From Pantoea eucrina (lineage in GTDB: Bacteria; Pseudomonadota; Gammaproteobacteria; Enterobacterales; Enterobacteriaceae), in NCBI RefSeq assembly GCF_001691555.1, contig NZ_MAYN01000001.1, positions 248,001 to 312,000 on the forward strand: DNA of 64,000 nucleotides. Direction: 5' to 3'. Below the pieces are notes generated by a model. That model had not been told where the DNA came from. It was given only the letters and a program-made list of their open reading frames with translations, and searched no databases. The position numbers were made by a program, and so were the translations under genes. This document shows, piece after piece, positions 35,942 to 42,438 of the stretch (position 1 is its first letter; every line of letters starts with the position of its first letter).

Positions 35942-36766
35942 CTAACCTAAGTAAAACTTCATATTTTCAATTATCTGTTTTGCCAGAACAGCATGGTCCA
36001 TTTCCCAGCGTGCCGGGCTGAAGAGTTCTGCTGACCACACGCCGTCAAAACCGGTGGCTTTGACCGCATTACTCCATGCATGAATATCAATATCCCCTTC
36101 GCCCGGCATATAAGCGCGCAACACTGTTTCATTCCACTCTTCACCCGGGTACGGCTTACGACCATCACAAAAGTGAACGCCGTAGATAAGGGCAGGATCA
36201 AGCTGTTTAATATCTTCCGGCGTAGTATGCCCGGTCGCAAAGAGATGCCAGAAATCGATGACTAAACCGATGTTAGGGGCGTTTATACGCTGAATCACCT
36301 CCAGCGCCTGACTGAGCGTGTTAAATCGGGTATGTGCGATAACCTCAATTTGATAGCGCACACCATATTGCTGACCAATACTGGCAATCTCAGAAATATT
36401 GTCGGTAATAATGTCGAGAATCTGCCCCTCGGGCAGATGATCAATGCCATGCTGCGCCAGTATCTGAATCGTCGGGCAGGCCAAATCAGCCGCAATCTGC
36501 GTCAGTCGCCTGGCTTCAGCCAGCATTTTCTGCTTTTCTGCCCCCTGATGGCGTTCAATATTTATCAGTGCATTAAGGCACAGAGTCTGCAATCCATGCC
36601 CCTGCACCAACTTGTTAAGTTCAGCAGTAGTGCCGCCGTGATCAAGATAACGCAGCAATTTGTCATGTAAAAATTCCAGACCATCATAGCCCGCTTCTGC
36701 AGCTATACGCGCTTCAGTAACGACATTGCAGTAATGTGTTGAAATGCCGTGCAGGGCCTTAAGCAT
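35942..36766 (-). CDS. Sugar phosphate isomerase/epimerase (TIM barrel)
   Basis: A 274-residue xylose-isomerase-like barrel (AP endonuclease 2 superfamily). It has GYDGLEFLHDK near the start, EVIAHTRFNT and LVIDFWHLFATG with metal-binding acid and His positions, and a closing region GFDGVWSAELFS. It lies downstream of an AraC-type regulator on the same strand and near the 38.5-42.4 kb operon, with which it shares a sugar or inositol theme. The substrate is unknown. Confidence 0.84.
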   Translation of the reverse strand: MLKALHGISTHYCNVVTEARIAAEAGYDGLEFLHDKLLRYLDHGGTTAELNKLVQGHGLQTLCLNALINIERHQGAEKQKMLAEARRLTQIAADLACPTIQILAQHGIDHLPEGQILDIITDNISEIASIGQQYGVRYQIEVIAHTRFNTLSQALEVIQRINAPNIGLVIDFWHLFATGHTTPEDIKQLDPALIYGVHFCDGRKPYPGEEWNETVLRAYMPGEGDIDIHAWSNAVKATGFDGVWSAELFSPARWEMDHAVLAKQIIENMKFYLG

Positions 36767-36941: not shown

Positions 36942-37811
36942 TTAACTTTTTATCTGCCCGGTTATCCAGAATTTCTTATAACGAGCCGGCGGGATGCCGA
37001 CAAGATTATGAAAGATTCGATGGAAATTGTTTACATTATCGTAGCCCACCGCACTTGCTACATCTATCACACCCAAATCGGTACTTAATAATAGGTTCTG
37101 GGCCTCACCAATACGGCGACGGGTCTGGTATTGTTTTGGAGAGTAACCTGAATAGGCTTTAAACACATGCGCCAGATAAAACTGATTCATATTCATTGCC
37201 GCAGTAATTGAATTCAGGGAGATATCTTCTTTATAATGGTTATCGATATAATCCTTCACACGCTGCCCTAATAATACGCTGGCTGTTTCTTGTTGCGGCT
37301 TACTTTCTATCCAGATATTTCTGCATATTAATAATAAAACGTTGAGTAAGCTATCGCCAATTTCTGTGCTGTACAGCCGTTTACTACTGACGTGCGACCA
37401 CATTTGTTCAAACAGCTGGCAAATTTCATAGTAATAATTTCCGCTCGGCATGACCGCGGTTTGTGCACGTGGCGTAAGGACGTTGAGTGGCAAACCATCG
37501 ACTTTTAGCTGTTCAACGCCACAGCTAAATATCAGTAAGTCATCTGTTGCTTCCGGACATTCATCATGAAGCACGCTGGCATTGAACAGCAATATATCGC
37601 CGGGTTTAACAACATAGTTACGGCCGTCAATATTATAAATACCTTTTCCTGCGCGGATAAACATTAACTCAAAGCGTTCATCATGCTTATGCATTACGCG
37701 AGGGATCGCTTCCTCTTTGCCTTCGGCCTTGCAAATGAAGCTCAAACGCGGTCGCAAGCCACTATCGAAGCCGCGTACGGAAGAATGCTCGTTAAGGCTG
37801 AAAGTGATCAT
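36942..37811 (-). CDS. AraC-family regulator with cupin sensor
   Basis: A 289-residue regulator. The N-terminal cupin sensor is at about 35-110 (HKHDERFELMFIRAGKG and GDILLFNASVLHDECPE). Two HTH motifs occupy the C-terminal 100 residues (ISLNSITAAMNMNQFYLAHVF and VIDVASAVGYDNVNNFHRIF). It is divergent from the sugar porter at 38478 across 666 bases and probably activates that operon on binding its sugar. Confidence 0.9.
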   Translation of the reverse strand: MITFSLNEHSSVRGFDSGLRPRLSFICKAEGKEEAIPRVMHKHDERFELMFIRAGKGIYNIDGRNYVVKPGDILLFNASVLHDECPEATDDLLIFSCGVEQLKVDGLPLNVLTPRAQTAVMPSGNYYYEICQLFEQMWSHVSSKRLYSTEIGDSLLNVLLLICRNIWIESKPQQETASVLLGQRVKDYIDNHYKEDISLNSITAAMNMNQFYLAHVFKAYSGYSPKQYQTRRRIGEAQNLLLSTDLGVIDVASAVGYDNVNNFHRIFHNLVGIPPARYKKFWITGQIKS

Positions 37812-37978: not shown

Positions 37979-37994
37979 TATGATCATCATCACA
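37979..37994. promoter_or_regulatory. CRP-like site
   Basis: TATGA, six bases, TCACA: one mismatch from TGTGA-N6-TCACA. It lies in the AraC/porter intergenic region. Binding by CRP is inferred. Confidence 0.45.
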
Positions 37995-38477: not shown

Positions 38478-39887
38478 ATGTATAACAAAACTACCCTGCA
38501 GAATCCTAAGCGCATGCGTTTGATTACTCTTGTATCAACAATTGGTGGCTTATGCTTTGGTTATGACACCGGCGTTATTTCCGGCGCTCTGATATTCATG
38601 AAATATGATATGAATCTGACACCGGCTCAGGAAGGTTTTATTACTTCATTCCTGCTGTTTGGTGCCGCGTTAGGCTCTTTATTTGGCGGATATTTATCAG
38701 ACAAGCAGGGGCGTCGTAAAAATTTGCTCTGGGTGGCAGCAATCTTCATGTTTGGCGCATTAGGTACGGCATTTGCCTGGGATGTGCCATCAATGATTGT
38801 GGCGCGCTTTATCCTGGGTTTAGCTGTGGGCTGTGCTTCTGTAACCGTACCCATTTATATTTCTGAACTGGCCCGCGCGGATCAGCGCGAGCGGTTAGTC
38901 ACCGTCAACGAATTAATGATTGTTACCGGTCAGTTCCTTGCTTACTCCGTTAATGCGACGCTTGTGAATGCCTATCCCGAGTTGCAGCACAACTGGCGCA
39001 TTATGTTAGCCATTCCAGCATTGCCTGGCGCGCTACTGTGGATTGGTATGCTTATGATGCCGGAATCACCGCGTTTCTTTATTCGCCGCGGTGAAACCGA
39101 AAAGGCCATAAAAGTATTGAAATCGCTTCGCCTGCCGGAAGAAGTTGACCGTGAAGTGAAAGATATCCAGCAAATCGTCAAAGCCGACCAGATGAAATTA
39201 AACCTGTTTGAAGAATTGAAAAAACGTTGGGTGATTCAACTGGTGTTAACGGGATTAATGATCGTGCTGGCAACGCGTGTTACCGGGGTCAACACCATCA
39301 TGTACTACGCGCCAACAGTATTGAAAGCTACTGGTCTGGGCGATGCGGCGGCTGTAACTGGTGCAGTAGCCAATGGCATTATTTCAGTACTGGCTACCCT
39401 GCTTGGCATGGCATTAATTGGCAAACACTCACGCCGAAAAATGTTTTTTACCGGACAGGCCGGCGTCACTCTGAGCCTGCTACTGATTGGTTTAGCGTTT
39501 AAATTTTTGTTCCATACTGAAGTTGTTAACGGTACAGAAATTCTGCACGCGAATTTTGCCAGCGCACCTTATGTGATACTTGGCTTAATGCTGGTTTTCC
39601 TGGTGTTTATGCAAGGCTGGATAGCGCCGGTATTTTGGCTGATGCTGGCAGAAATCTATCCTCTCAGAATGCGCGGTATCGGTATGGGCTTTGCGGTATT
39701 CGGTTTGTGGATATTCGATTTTATGATCCAGTCTATTTTTCCTTTCTTACTGAGCCATTACGGAGGCGGCTTGACCTTTGGCTTCTTCGGGGCAACCAAC
39801 ATCATTATGCTTATCTTGCTGGTGAAATATCTGCCGGAAACACGCGGTCTGACACTAGAGCAGATTGAAAAGAAATTTCGTTTTTAA
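38478..39887 (+). CDS. MFS sugar/inositol:proton symporter
   Basis: A 469-residue sugar-porter-family transporter, probably 12 helices. Family motifs are clear: GGLCFGYDTGVISGALIF, GGYLSDKQGRRK, PESPRFFIRRG and LPETRGLTLEQIE. GALP/XylE and IolT-type proteins are the closest types, and the Gfo/Idh gene next to it suggests myo-inositol or a similar polyol. First gene of an operon with the dehydrogenase, EIIA and isomerase genes. Confidence 0.9.
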   Translation: MYNKTTLQNPKRMRLITLVSTIGGLCFGYDTGVISGALIFMKYDMNLTPAQEGFITSFLLFGAALGSLFGGYLSDKQGRRKNLLWVAAIFMFGALGTAFAWDVPSMIVARFILGLAVGCASVTVPIYISELARADQRERLVTVNELMIVTGQFLAYSVNATLVNAYPELQHNWRIMLAIPALPGALLWIGMLMMPESPRFFIRRGETEKAIKVLKSLRLPEEVDREVKDIQQIVKADQMKLNLFEELKKRWVIQLVLTGLMIVLATRVTGVNTIMYYAPTVLKATGLGDAAAVTGAVANGIISVLATLLGMALIGKHSRRKMFFTGQAGVTLSLLLIGLAFKFLFHTEVVNGTEILHANFASAPYVILGLMLVFLVFMQGWIAPVFWLMLAEIYPLRMRGIGMGFAVFGLWIFDFMIQSIFPFLLSHYGGGLTFGFFGATNIIMLILLVKYLPETRGLTLEQIEKKFRF

Positions 39888-39912: not shown

Positions 39913-40923
39913 ATGACTGTCAAAATTGGCTTGATTGGTCTGGGTATGATTGGCCAGGACCACTTAAAACGTTTTAAAAATGTTATTACTGGTGCGCAGG
40001 TTACTGCTGTTTGCGATATAAACCACACGGCAGCTGATGTAGCTGCCAGAGAATTTAACGCTACAGCGTTTTATGATGCTGAAGAGATGATTAATTCAGA
40101 GCTGGTCGATGCAGTATTTATTTGCTCAATAGGCCCGGTTCATAAAACGCAAATACTTGCGGCATTTAATGCTGGCAAACCGGTATTTTGCGAAAAGCCA
40201 TTAACCCCAACTGCTGACGAATCAGCAGCAATCATTGATGCTGAAGTCAGGGCTGGTAAGCGTCTGCTTCAACTTGGCTTTATGCGTCGTTTCGATCCAG
40301 GCTATCAGGCGCTGAAAAAGACAATTGATGACGGTAAAGCCGGCAATATCCTGCTTATCCATTGCGCACACAGAAACCCCTCTGTGCCTGAAAGCTATAC
40401 GCTGGAAATGGCGGTGAATGATTCAGCCACTCACGAAATCGATATTATCCGCTATTTGCTTAATGAGGATATTACTTCGGTGCGGGTGGATAAACCCCGT
40501 AAGAAAACCCACCGCGCGCTGCCGCATTTACAGGATCCTTTAATCATAATTTTTGAGACTGAATCAGGTGTGCGCATTGATGATGAGCTGTTTGTGAACT
40601 GCCATTACGGCTATGACATCCGCTGTGAGGTGATTGGCGAAAACGCGATTGTCGCGCTTACTGAACAGCAGCTGATCAGCACGCGTTCGCTGAACGGCAA
40701 CGCACAGCATATCGCACAATCCTGCATGGAGCGTTTCGCTACGGCATACGATCGGGAAGTGCAGCATTTTGTCGATAACGTGCGTAAAGGGCGCGACATG
40801 AGCGGCCCCTCCTCATGGGATGGTTACGTAGTAGCGCTGGTTTGTGATGCCGGTTTAGCATCGCTGAAAGATGGCCTGAAACACGATGTCATTATTCCGC
40901 CGCAGCCAGCACTTTACCGTTAA
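39913..40923 (+). CDS. Gfo/Idh/MocA dehydrogenase, inositol-dehydrogenase-like
   Basis: A 336-residue NAD(P)-dependent oxidoreductase with the nucleotide-binding GLIGLGMIGQDHLKRF, the catalytic EKP motif (CEKPLTPT), and RRFDPGYQALK and DSATHEIDIIRYL typical of IolG-like enzymes. It probably oxidises inositol or a related polyol. GAGGATAAATA lies before the ATG, 25 bases after the porter stop. Confidence 0.89.
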   Translation: MTVKIGLIGLGMIGQDHLKRFKNVITGAQVTAVCDINHTAADVAAREFNATAFYDAEEMINSELVDAVFICSIGPVHKTQILAAFNAGKPVFCEKPLTPTADESAAIIDAEVRAGKRLLQLGFMRRFDPGYQALKKTIDDGKAGNILLIHCAHRNPSVPESYTLEMAVNDSATHEIDIIRYLLNEDITSVRVDKPRKKTHRALPHLQDPLIIIFETESGVRIDDELFVNCHYGYDIRCEVIGENAIVALTEQQLISTRSLNGNAQHIAQSCMERFATAYDREVQHFVDNVRKGRDMSGPSSWDGYVVALVCDAGLASLKDGLKHDVIIPPQPALYR

Positions 40924-40959: not shown

Positions 40960-41469
40960 ATGCTGAGTTTAACTGAAGACGCGCTGCATTTGCAGTGCCG
41001 CGCAACGAATAAAAATGAGGCTATACATATTGCCGCCAGTGCTCTGGAAAAAGCAGGTTATGTTAAGCCCGGCTTTGAACAAGGAATGCTGTCGCGAGAA
41101 AAAAGTGTCTCAACCTATATTGGAGCAGGTATTGCGCTTCCCCATTGCGCAAAGGAAAACCTTGATTTAGTGATCCAATCAAAAAGTGTCTCAACCTATA
41201 TTGGAGCAGGTATTGCGCTTCCCCATTGCGCAAAGGAAAACCTTGATTTAGTGATCCAATCTGGCTTTCAGGTATTTCAATTTCCTGATGGCGTAAGCTG
41301 GGGAAAAGGAAAAGTTGTTTTTATTGTTGTCGCCGTGGCTGCAACTAAAAATGAACATATCCAGATTCTGGCAGATATTGCAGATTTATTAGGTGATGAA
41401 GTAAAAACCACCTTATTAGCAAATGCCAGAACTAAATCCGGTTTTATTGATCAGTTTGAAAGAGCATAA
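40960..41469 (+). CDS. Orphan PTS EIIA (mannitol/fructose type) with duplicated active-site segment
   Basis: A 169-residue EIIA-like protein. Residues 48-74 are repeated exactly at 75-101, so the ALPHC loop with the phosphorylated His occurs twice (H62 and H89). Without one copy the protein would be 142 residues, the usual size of an EIIA-Mtl domain; the C-terminal part (FPDGVSWGKGKVVFIVVAVAA, NEHIQILADIADLL split) is normal. No EIIB or EIIC gene is nearby, so it may be regulatory. The insertion would disturb the fold, and whether it is functional is open. Confidence 0.85.
   Translation: MLSLTEDALHLQCRATNKNEAIHIAASALEKAGYVKPGFEQGMLSREKSVSTYIGAGIALPHCAKENLDLVIQSKSVSTYIGAGIALPHCAKENLDLVIQSGFQVFQFPDGVSWGKGKVVFIVVAVAATKNEHIQILADIADLLGDEVKTTLLANARTKSGFIDQFERA
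41100..41261 (+). repeat. Perfect 81-base tandem duplication inside the EIIA gene
   Basis: Bases 41100-41180 and 41181-41261 are identical, with no intervening base. The length is a multiple of three, so the frame is kept (27 residues). Absence of any difference indicates a very recent event, or an assembly artefact. Confidence 0.95.
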
Positions 41470-41496: not shown

Positions 41497-42438
41497 ATGG
41501 AATTAGCATTATGTACTGACGTTCTGGCGGATTTACCTTTCCCGGCCATGCTGGATAAAGTGAAAAGTTATGGCATTCATGGTGTTGAAATGACCGCAGG
41601 TGGCTGGTCATCCTGTCCACATGTCAACACCACAGAATTATTAAGTTCACCTGAAAAGCTTGAGCAATTTAAGCAGGAACTGGCTGAGCGGGAGATGCGT
41701 ATTGTGGCGCTGAACTGTTCTGGCAACCCGTTAGCGCCAGGTGAACTGGGTGAAACCCATAGCAAAAGTAGCTACAGGGCGGTTGAGTTAGCAGGCAAAC
41801 TGGGTGTTAAAAAGATTGTGATGATGAGCGGTTTACCTGGAGGCGGGCCAGACGATCGCGTACCGAACTGGATTACTTCAACTGTGTCATGGCCGGATTA
41901 CATGCCGGGGGTAATCGACTATCAATGGAACGATGTCGCGATTCCATGGTGGAAAAAATTTGTGCAGCACGCTAAGCACCATGGCGTAGAGCAAATTGCT
42001 ATCGAAGAATTTCCGAGTCAGCTGGTTTATAACCCGTCTACCCTGCTGCGCCTGCGTCACGCGGTAGATAATATGATTGGCATTAACCTGGACCCCTCCC
42101 ATCTGATAGCTATGGGGGCCGATCCTATTGCGGCAGCCCGTAAGCTGGAAGGCGCAGTATTTCATGTTCATGGTAAAGATGCGCGCATTGAACGAGGCCT
42201 TGCCGATATTGATGGACTGATGGAGTATCAGCCGGTCACCCATACTAAAACCCGTACATGGAACTATGTCGCCGTAGGTTGCGGGCAGGATCTCAAATGG
42301 TGGAAAGAGTTCTTTTCAGTATTGCGTATGACTGGCTATGACGGTGATGTTTCACTCGAGATGGAAGATCTTACGATGAGTGTTGAAGCCGGTCTGCAAA
42401 CGTCAATTGATGCATTACTCGCTACACTGAGTCGCTAG
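41497..42438 (+). CDS. Sugar phosphate isomerase/epimerase (TIM barrel)
   Basis: A 313-residue xylose-isomerase-like barrel. Features are GIHGVEMTAGG, VALNCSGNPLAPGELGETH, IEEFPSQLVYNPSTLLRLR, NLDPSHLIAMGADP and VFHVHGKD, with metal-binding Glu, Asp and His residues in the usual order. It is the last gene of the porter operon and differs clearly from the barrel at 35942. It would act after the dehydrogenase on the keto sugar. Confidence 0.86.
   Translation: MELALCTDVLADLPFPAMLDKVKSYGIHGVEMTAGGWSSCPHVNTTELLSSPEKLEQFKQELAEREMRIVALNCSGNPLAPGELGETHSKSSYRAVELAGKLGVKKIVMMSGLPGGGPDDRVPNWITSTVSWPDYMPGVIDYQWNDVAIPWWKKFVQHAKHHGVEQIAIEEFPSQLVYNPSTLLRLRHAVDNMIGINLDPSHLIAMGADPIAAARKLEGAVFHVHGKDARIERGLADIDGLMEYQPVTHTKTRTWNYVAVGCGQDLKWWKEFFSVLRMTGYDGDVSLEMEDLTMSVEAGLQTSIDALLATLSR

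Follow-up and report, generated by a model that had tools for sequence, protein, structure and literature searches.

The protein considered here resembles the mannitol EIIA of Escherichia coli (PDB 1a3a, family PF00359) in its alignment and in the positions of R46, H62 and H106. In contrast to the EIIA of the mannitol and fructose PTS, it is encoded by a stand-alone gene in a cluster without EIIB and EIIC, and the copy in the window (the whole analysed stretch of 64,000 nucleotides) has 27 additional residues that duplicate the acceptor loop. Two systems treated in excerpts of PMC10710835 place a secondary sugar transporter under such a component: EIIA-Glc inhibits LacY, and LacS has a fused EIIA-Glc-like domain. 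The logic proposed for the present locus is the same, with the phosphorylation state of a PTS component controlling the transporter; here, however, the EIIA is a separate gene beside the porter, and its control of the porter is putative, suggested by gene pairing. According to excerpts of PMC5770620, EIIA-Glc represents another EIIA family, dissimilar to the Fru/Mtl type. The same excerpts describe KPN00353 of Klebsiella pneumoniae, a Fru/Mtl-type EIIA that is reported to bind glycerol kinase, which is not a PTS protein, and to inhibit it when overexpressed, with H65 being important; its knock-out left 1,3-propanediol output unchanged. Unlike the EIIA in the window, KPN00353 has an EIIB and an EIIC encoded alongside it, and its target is an enzyme, not a porter (PMC5770620). 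Among titles and abstract beginnings of the openly licensed literature, no report on the pairing of a Fru/Mtl EIIA with a sugar porter was recognised, which is weak evidence of absence. EIIA-Glc is the only EIIA treated in the excerpts of PMC3325963, and the PTS and EIIA do not occur in those of PMC9430895.

The change at the present locus is best read, with a probability of roughly 0.6, as a recent, in-frame duplication of 81 bases, private among the genomes examined, in a porter-linked stand-alone EIIA of a Pantoea close to P. eucrina, most likely giving a weakened or inactive protein and no new function.

The repeat and the cluster around it

The features of the locus are collected in Table 1. 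The array at 41100-41261 is perfect, both by Tandem Repeats Finder (period 81, 2.0 copies, 100% match, 0 indels) and by direct comparison of the two copies (81/81 bases identical), and this number of exactly repeated bases is beyond chance. The first-pass annotation had reported an exact repeat with a unit of 27 residues, giving two loops with H62 and H89 in a protein of 169 residues, and its coordinates and residue numbers were confirmed. The 27 codons keep the frame, with residues 48-74 recurring as 75-101. Removal of one copy had been said to leave an EIIA of normal length, and the nearest relatives indeed have 142 residues, which is 169 minus 27. Within the 64-kb window this is the only exact tandem array whose period falls in the range 15-999; two imperfect arrays, with periods of 17 and 27, are also present (Tandem Repeats Finder). 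In the direct comparison, the match between the copies is not prolonged by even 1 base at either end and no microhomology is present at the breakpoints; inverted repeats are likewise absent within 41000-41400. Slippage without microhomology is unusual.

Table 1. Features of the window and of loci in relatives
Feature	Location	Strand	Remarks
Second TIM-barrel isomerase-like gene	35942..36766	-	Beyond the AraC regulator
AraC-type regulator	36942..37811	-	Divergent from the cluster
Sugar porter, major facilitator superfamily	38478..39887	+	469 aa, full length; most constant genomic partner of EIIA
Gfo/Idh/MocA oxidoreductase, inositol-dehydrogenase-like	39913..40923	+	Under the IolG cut-off
Stand-alone PTS EIIA gene (PF00359)	40960..41469	+	Open reading frame with ATG start, 169 aa including the duplication; Pfam
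Repeat copy 1	41100..41180	+	Bears H62; Tandem Repeats Finder and direct comparison
Repeat copy 2	41181..41261	+	Bears H89; Tandem Repeats Finder and direct comparison
Xylose-isomerase-like TIM barrel, distantly IolE-like	41497..42438	+	Far under the IolE cut-off
Porter directly before or overlapping EIIA	L069, 4557-6435		No inositol-type enzyme between
Porter directly before or overlapping EIIA	L073, 4559-6423		No inositol-type enzyme between
Porter directly before or overlapping EIIA	L148, 5003-6866		No inositol-type enzyme between
Porter directly before or overlapping EIIA	L150, 2816-4728		No inositol-type enzyme between
Porter remnant	L047, 5360-6928		IS1 annotated directly upstream
Porter remnant	L048, 6113-6925

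An exact repeat of odd length, with no microhomology at its ends and located in a draft genome of 8 contigs, may also arise during assembly: if two contigs or graph paths share an 81-base overlap and are joined unmerged, a false exact tandem copy is left. Assemblers use odd word sizes, as in a length of 81. Such a joining error would, however, be expected to recur at one length. The window and 20 stretches of 20 kb, together 464,000 of the 3,939,877 bases (12% of the assembly), contain no second exact tandem copy of 81 bases, which makes a recurring assembly error unlikely. Exact tandem arrays with a period of 30-999 are limited, in these bases, to the EIIA array and a 61-base one, which is surrounded by diverged copies in L051 (about 156-650), on the contig of the window; no long open frame spans that region. 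Two arrays with periods of 18 and 22 were also seen, as were several incomplete direct repeats. Exact tandem arrays with a period of at least 30 are absent from 173,862 bases of the relatives' loci. Overall, an artefact is considered improbable.

The strand and the short gaps of the cluster genes suggest a single operon, in which the genes other than EIIA are full length. Membership of the second isomerase-like gene is doubtful, because it accompanies the cluster in only some relatives. A link to inositol-type substrates, raised by the first-pass annotation, is plausible but weak: the IolG-like enzyme scores 406.5 bits against a curated cut-off of 540 and the IolE-like enzyme 22.9 against 290, and by these scores the cluster does not qualify as an iol operon. 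CRP-like sites were also considered; the window has 2 one-mismatch matches against 1.43 expected from shuffles, so that their number is no signal above chance, although one of them, at 37979-37994, is located in the interval that separates the AraC gene from the porter. The genome has a size of 3.94 Mb, and the window lies on its contig C1, of 424 kb. Contig C1 is probably a large plasmid, because the EIIA locus of P. eucrina strain XL123 is located on a 343-kb plasmid.

The one-copy EIIA and its pairing with a sugar porter

Against PF00359, with a cut-off of 27 bits, the EIIA in the window scores 117.1 bits in two stretches (Pfam) and its one-copy relative L006 scores 100.8 bits. Residues 7-129 of L006 align to 1a3a, the mannitol EIIA of E. 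coli, with an E value of 6.6e-24, and R46, H62 and H106 correspond to residues 49, 65 and 111. Residue 65 of 1a3a is the histidine phosphorylated by HPr, and all three matching residues are regarded as functional. H62 pairs with residue 65 with no gap before it, in agreement with the earlier statement that the acceptor histidine lies inside the duplicated segment. With a score above the cut-off and the acceptor histidine, the partner histidine and the arginine all present, the protein can be placed in PF00359. The equivalents of R46, H62 and H106 are invariant in all 31 stand-alone EIIA relatives, and excerpts of PMC5770620 name His65 and His110 as key conserved residues in phosphorylation of a Klebsiella EIIA. 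When the EIIA gene is counted with one copy and compared with P. eucrina, dN is 0.012, dS is 0.60 and dN/dS is 0.02, values that indicate strong constraint on the gene. The dN/dS ratio of the porter gene and of both enzyme genes is 0.03-0.07.

Three HPr-family matches over the cut-off occur in the genome, one of them in a frame of 386 codons that also holds an EIIA. PTS_IIB gives 3 matches, none on contig C1, and PTS_EIIC gives 9, of which one is located on C1, beyond the window and at a distance of about 100 kb from the EIIA. None of the six cluster genes encodes an EIIB or EIIC, and the cluster is thus not a Fru/Mtl PTS permease. The normal EIIA would very probably be phosphorylated by HPr on one histidine and, lacking a neighbouring EIIB or EIIC, would report the state of the PTS to the sugar porter of the cluster.

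The first-pass annotation regarded an EIIA with a porter and without EIIB and EIIC as an oddity. This did not hold, as the arrangement is conserved: a sugar porter on the same strand, adjoining the EIIA or one gene off, was found in 26 of 27 genomic loci, with or without inositol-type genes. These loci comprise 18 from 16 other genomes of the genus, 6 from 6 further genomes of the family sample and 3 of a distant type; they were picked by score and stand-alone frame among the matches listed and are not a random sample, and in some of them the stretch includes no more than the final portion of the porter. Because the loci were found by similarity to the EIIA and not to the porter, the pairing is no product of the search itself. 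EIIA matches occur in 17 of 61 genomes of the genus (E <= 1e-20) and in 7 of 295 genomes of the family sample (E <= 1e-24), the window's own genome being counted in both. The single exception, G011, has neither a porter nor an IolG-like gene within the 10 kb read.

Three arrangements of the genes can be distinguished. In most loci the order is porter, IolG-like gene, EIIA and IolE-like gene. In the second arrangement (L148, L149 and L150) the porter is followed by the EIIA with no inositol-type enzyme between them, and in the third the porter and EIIA genes overlap; the overlap measures 11 bases in K. pneumoniae and 4 in Erwinia sp. E602. Compared to the window, the porter of the overlapping type is 37% identical and its EIIAs are 31-33% identical. 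The genome G036 has three EIIA genes, each with its own porter alongside, although one frame is short (112 codons). Of 119 plasmid records with a match, 7 were chosen for an annotated stand-alone EIIA, and in all 7 a porter adjoins the EIIA or lies one gene off, the porter being truncated in two. In an order-wide search with the EIIA of Klebsiella aerogenes, nearly all of the matches listed lie in long fused frames; a few shorter frames, of for example 248 and 298 codons, occur among the matches listed there and in the search that gave the loci of the distant type.

Therefore, the constant partner of the EIIA is the porter and not the inositol-type enzymes. Since this partner is constant and the three key residues are invariant, the simplest and best reading is that the normal EIIA is probably a PTS-dependent regulator of the porter. 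The regulatory role suggested earlier for the EIIA is made more likely by this conserved pairing.

On a plasmid of Pseudomonas sp. T1-3-2 (L017, 1953-7376) a cluster close in sequence to those of Pantoea was observed, in which all five genes found match in split pieces or shifted frames. This suggests either an assembly with many errors or a cluster that decayed after transfer.

Age of the duplication and loss at the locus in relatives

Comparison with relatives had been proposed as a check, and it left the double motif without parallel. A doubled acceptor loop is present in none of the 31 stand-alone EIIA frames, all of which have one copy (27 from genomes, some being the same as named loci, and 4 from plasmid records). 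They include the EIIA of Pantoea eucrina LMG 5346, the nearest named relative by the EIIA gene, which is 97% identical outside the insert, with the cluster DNA being 87.7-89.7% identical. Eleven of the 12 named EIIA loci have intact genes of 142 codons, and the frame of L017 is broken. E. coli genomes gave no DNA match at megablast sensitivity. Thus, the duplication is private to the window's genome among the relatives examined, in collections that represent most species by a single genome and may lack near copies of the window's own. A second PH motif, picked up by pattern matching in the EIIA of G212 and of a K. pneumoniae plasmid, is the C-terminal end of the protein (residues 144-147) and not a doubled loop.

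The repeat unit differs from P. eucrina at 8 of 81 bases, and the whole EIIA gene at 44 of 429, whereas the two copies differ from each other at none of 81. The duplication is therefore recent, as the first-pass annotation had proposed from the lack of divergence; under a simple clock and with no gene conversion, its age, as a fraction of the time elapsed since divergence from P. eucrina, stays below about 0.36 (95% bound).

Losses have also occurred at this locus in relatives. In two plasmids of the P. eucrina type (L047 and L048) only residues 199-469 of the porter are present in the stretches read, where neither residues 1-198 nor the AraC regulator could be found; in L047, IS1 is annotated directly upstream of the remnant. 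The two plasmids have 2 differences in 9,958 bases, and for this reason their losses probably represent one event. In P. wallisii (G060; L008, 3523-4928) the frame of the porter is broken at residue 104, possibly by a sequencing error. These cases indicate that loss at the EIIA-porter locus is tolerated in relatives, among them the sister species. Plasmid L048 (CP060162.1) is filed under Acinetobacter venetianus; it differs from the plasmid of P. eucrina XL123 at 2 of 9,958 bases in this region and shares its replicon cluster, and the label is probably wrong.

Effect of the duplication on the protein

The duplication would place 27 extra residues, with a second active-site loop, inside a single EIIA domain, as the repeat unit aligns to residues 51-77 of 1a3a. 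Copy 1 comes just after R46, and copy 2 is followed by the second conserved histidine (H133 here, H106 in the one-copy form), so that the native sequence context is kept on a single side of each copy. In principle, the fold could be filled by either copy while the other is looped out, and the likeliest outcome would be an EIIA that is weakened or inactive. Because the gene is constrained and the unit lies inside the domain, the extra residues are more likely to be harmful than useful; because of this constraint and the tolerated loss of the locus in relatives, recent loss or weakening is favoured over a new function. Against loss stands the preserved frame, which chance gives in 1 of 3 cases but which is expected too if the protein works; the full length of the other cluster genes and the Pfam score of the 169-residue protein, far over the cut-off, also speak against it.

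The same observations, an intact frame without a stop in an intact cluster and a two-stretch match to the family profile, are what a near-neutral allele would show, in which one copy fills the fold, the other forms an extruded loop and the EIIA works with one phospho-histidine. The extra segment, however, repeats a part of the domain itself and not a linker, and a profile score is silent on folding, so that this explanation is regarded as rather unlikely. AlphaFold2 gave low confidence both for the duplicated protein of 169 residues (mean pLDDT 41.6, alignment of 11 sequences) and for the one-copy control of 142 residues (44.7, 10 sequences), and both models were set aside.

The first-pass annotation had also raised the possibility of two phospho-sites or, alternatively, of a misfolded protein. 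Both loops are complete and identical, as would be needed for a twin-acceptor EIIA, and exact tandem repeats of about 81 bases are unstable, such that slippage loss of one copy could restore the EIIA and make the duplication a reversible switch. The absence of the duplication from all relatives examined gives no sign of maintenance, and the single native flank of each copy argues against gain of function as well, which is thus very improbable; for two working phospho-sites in the 169-residue EIIA no support was found.

Taken alone, the duplication is probably a private mutation, of value mainly as a natural experiment in which one EIIA bears two identical acceptor loops. Of more general use is the result that stand-alone Fru/Mtl EIIA genes adjoin sugar porters in three gene arrangements and across several genera. 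It may tentatively be proposed, although the full proposal is doubtful, that the Fru/Mtl EIIA and the porter form a dedicated and widespread module through which the PTS controls proton-driven sugar uptake, apart from EIIA-Glc, and that the window contains a natural doubled-loop allele changing or disabling this control, possibly reversibly through loss of one copy. The pairing of porter and EIIA offers a testable case for a second PTS route to secondary sugar transport, independent of EIIA-Glc.
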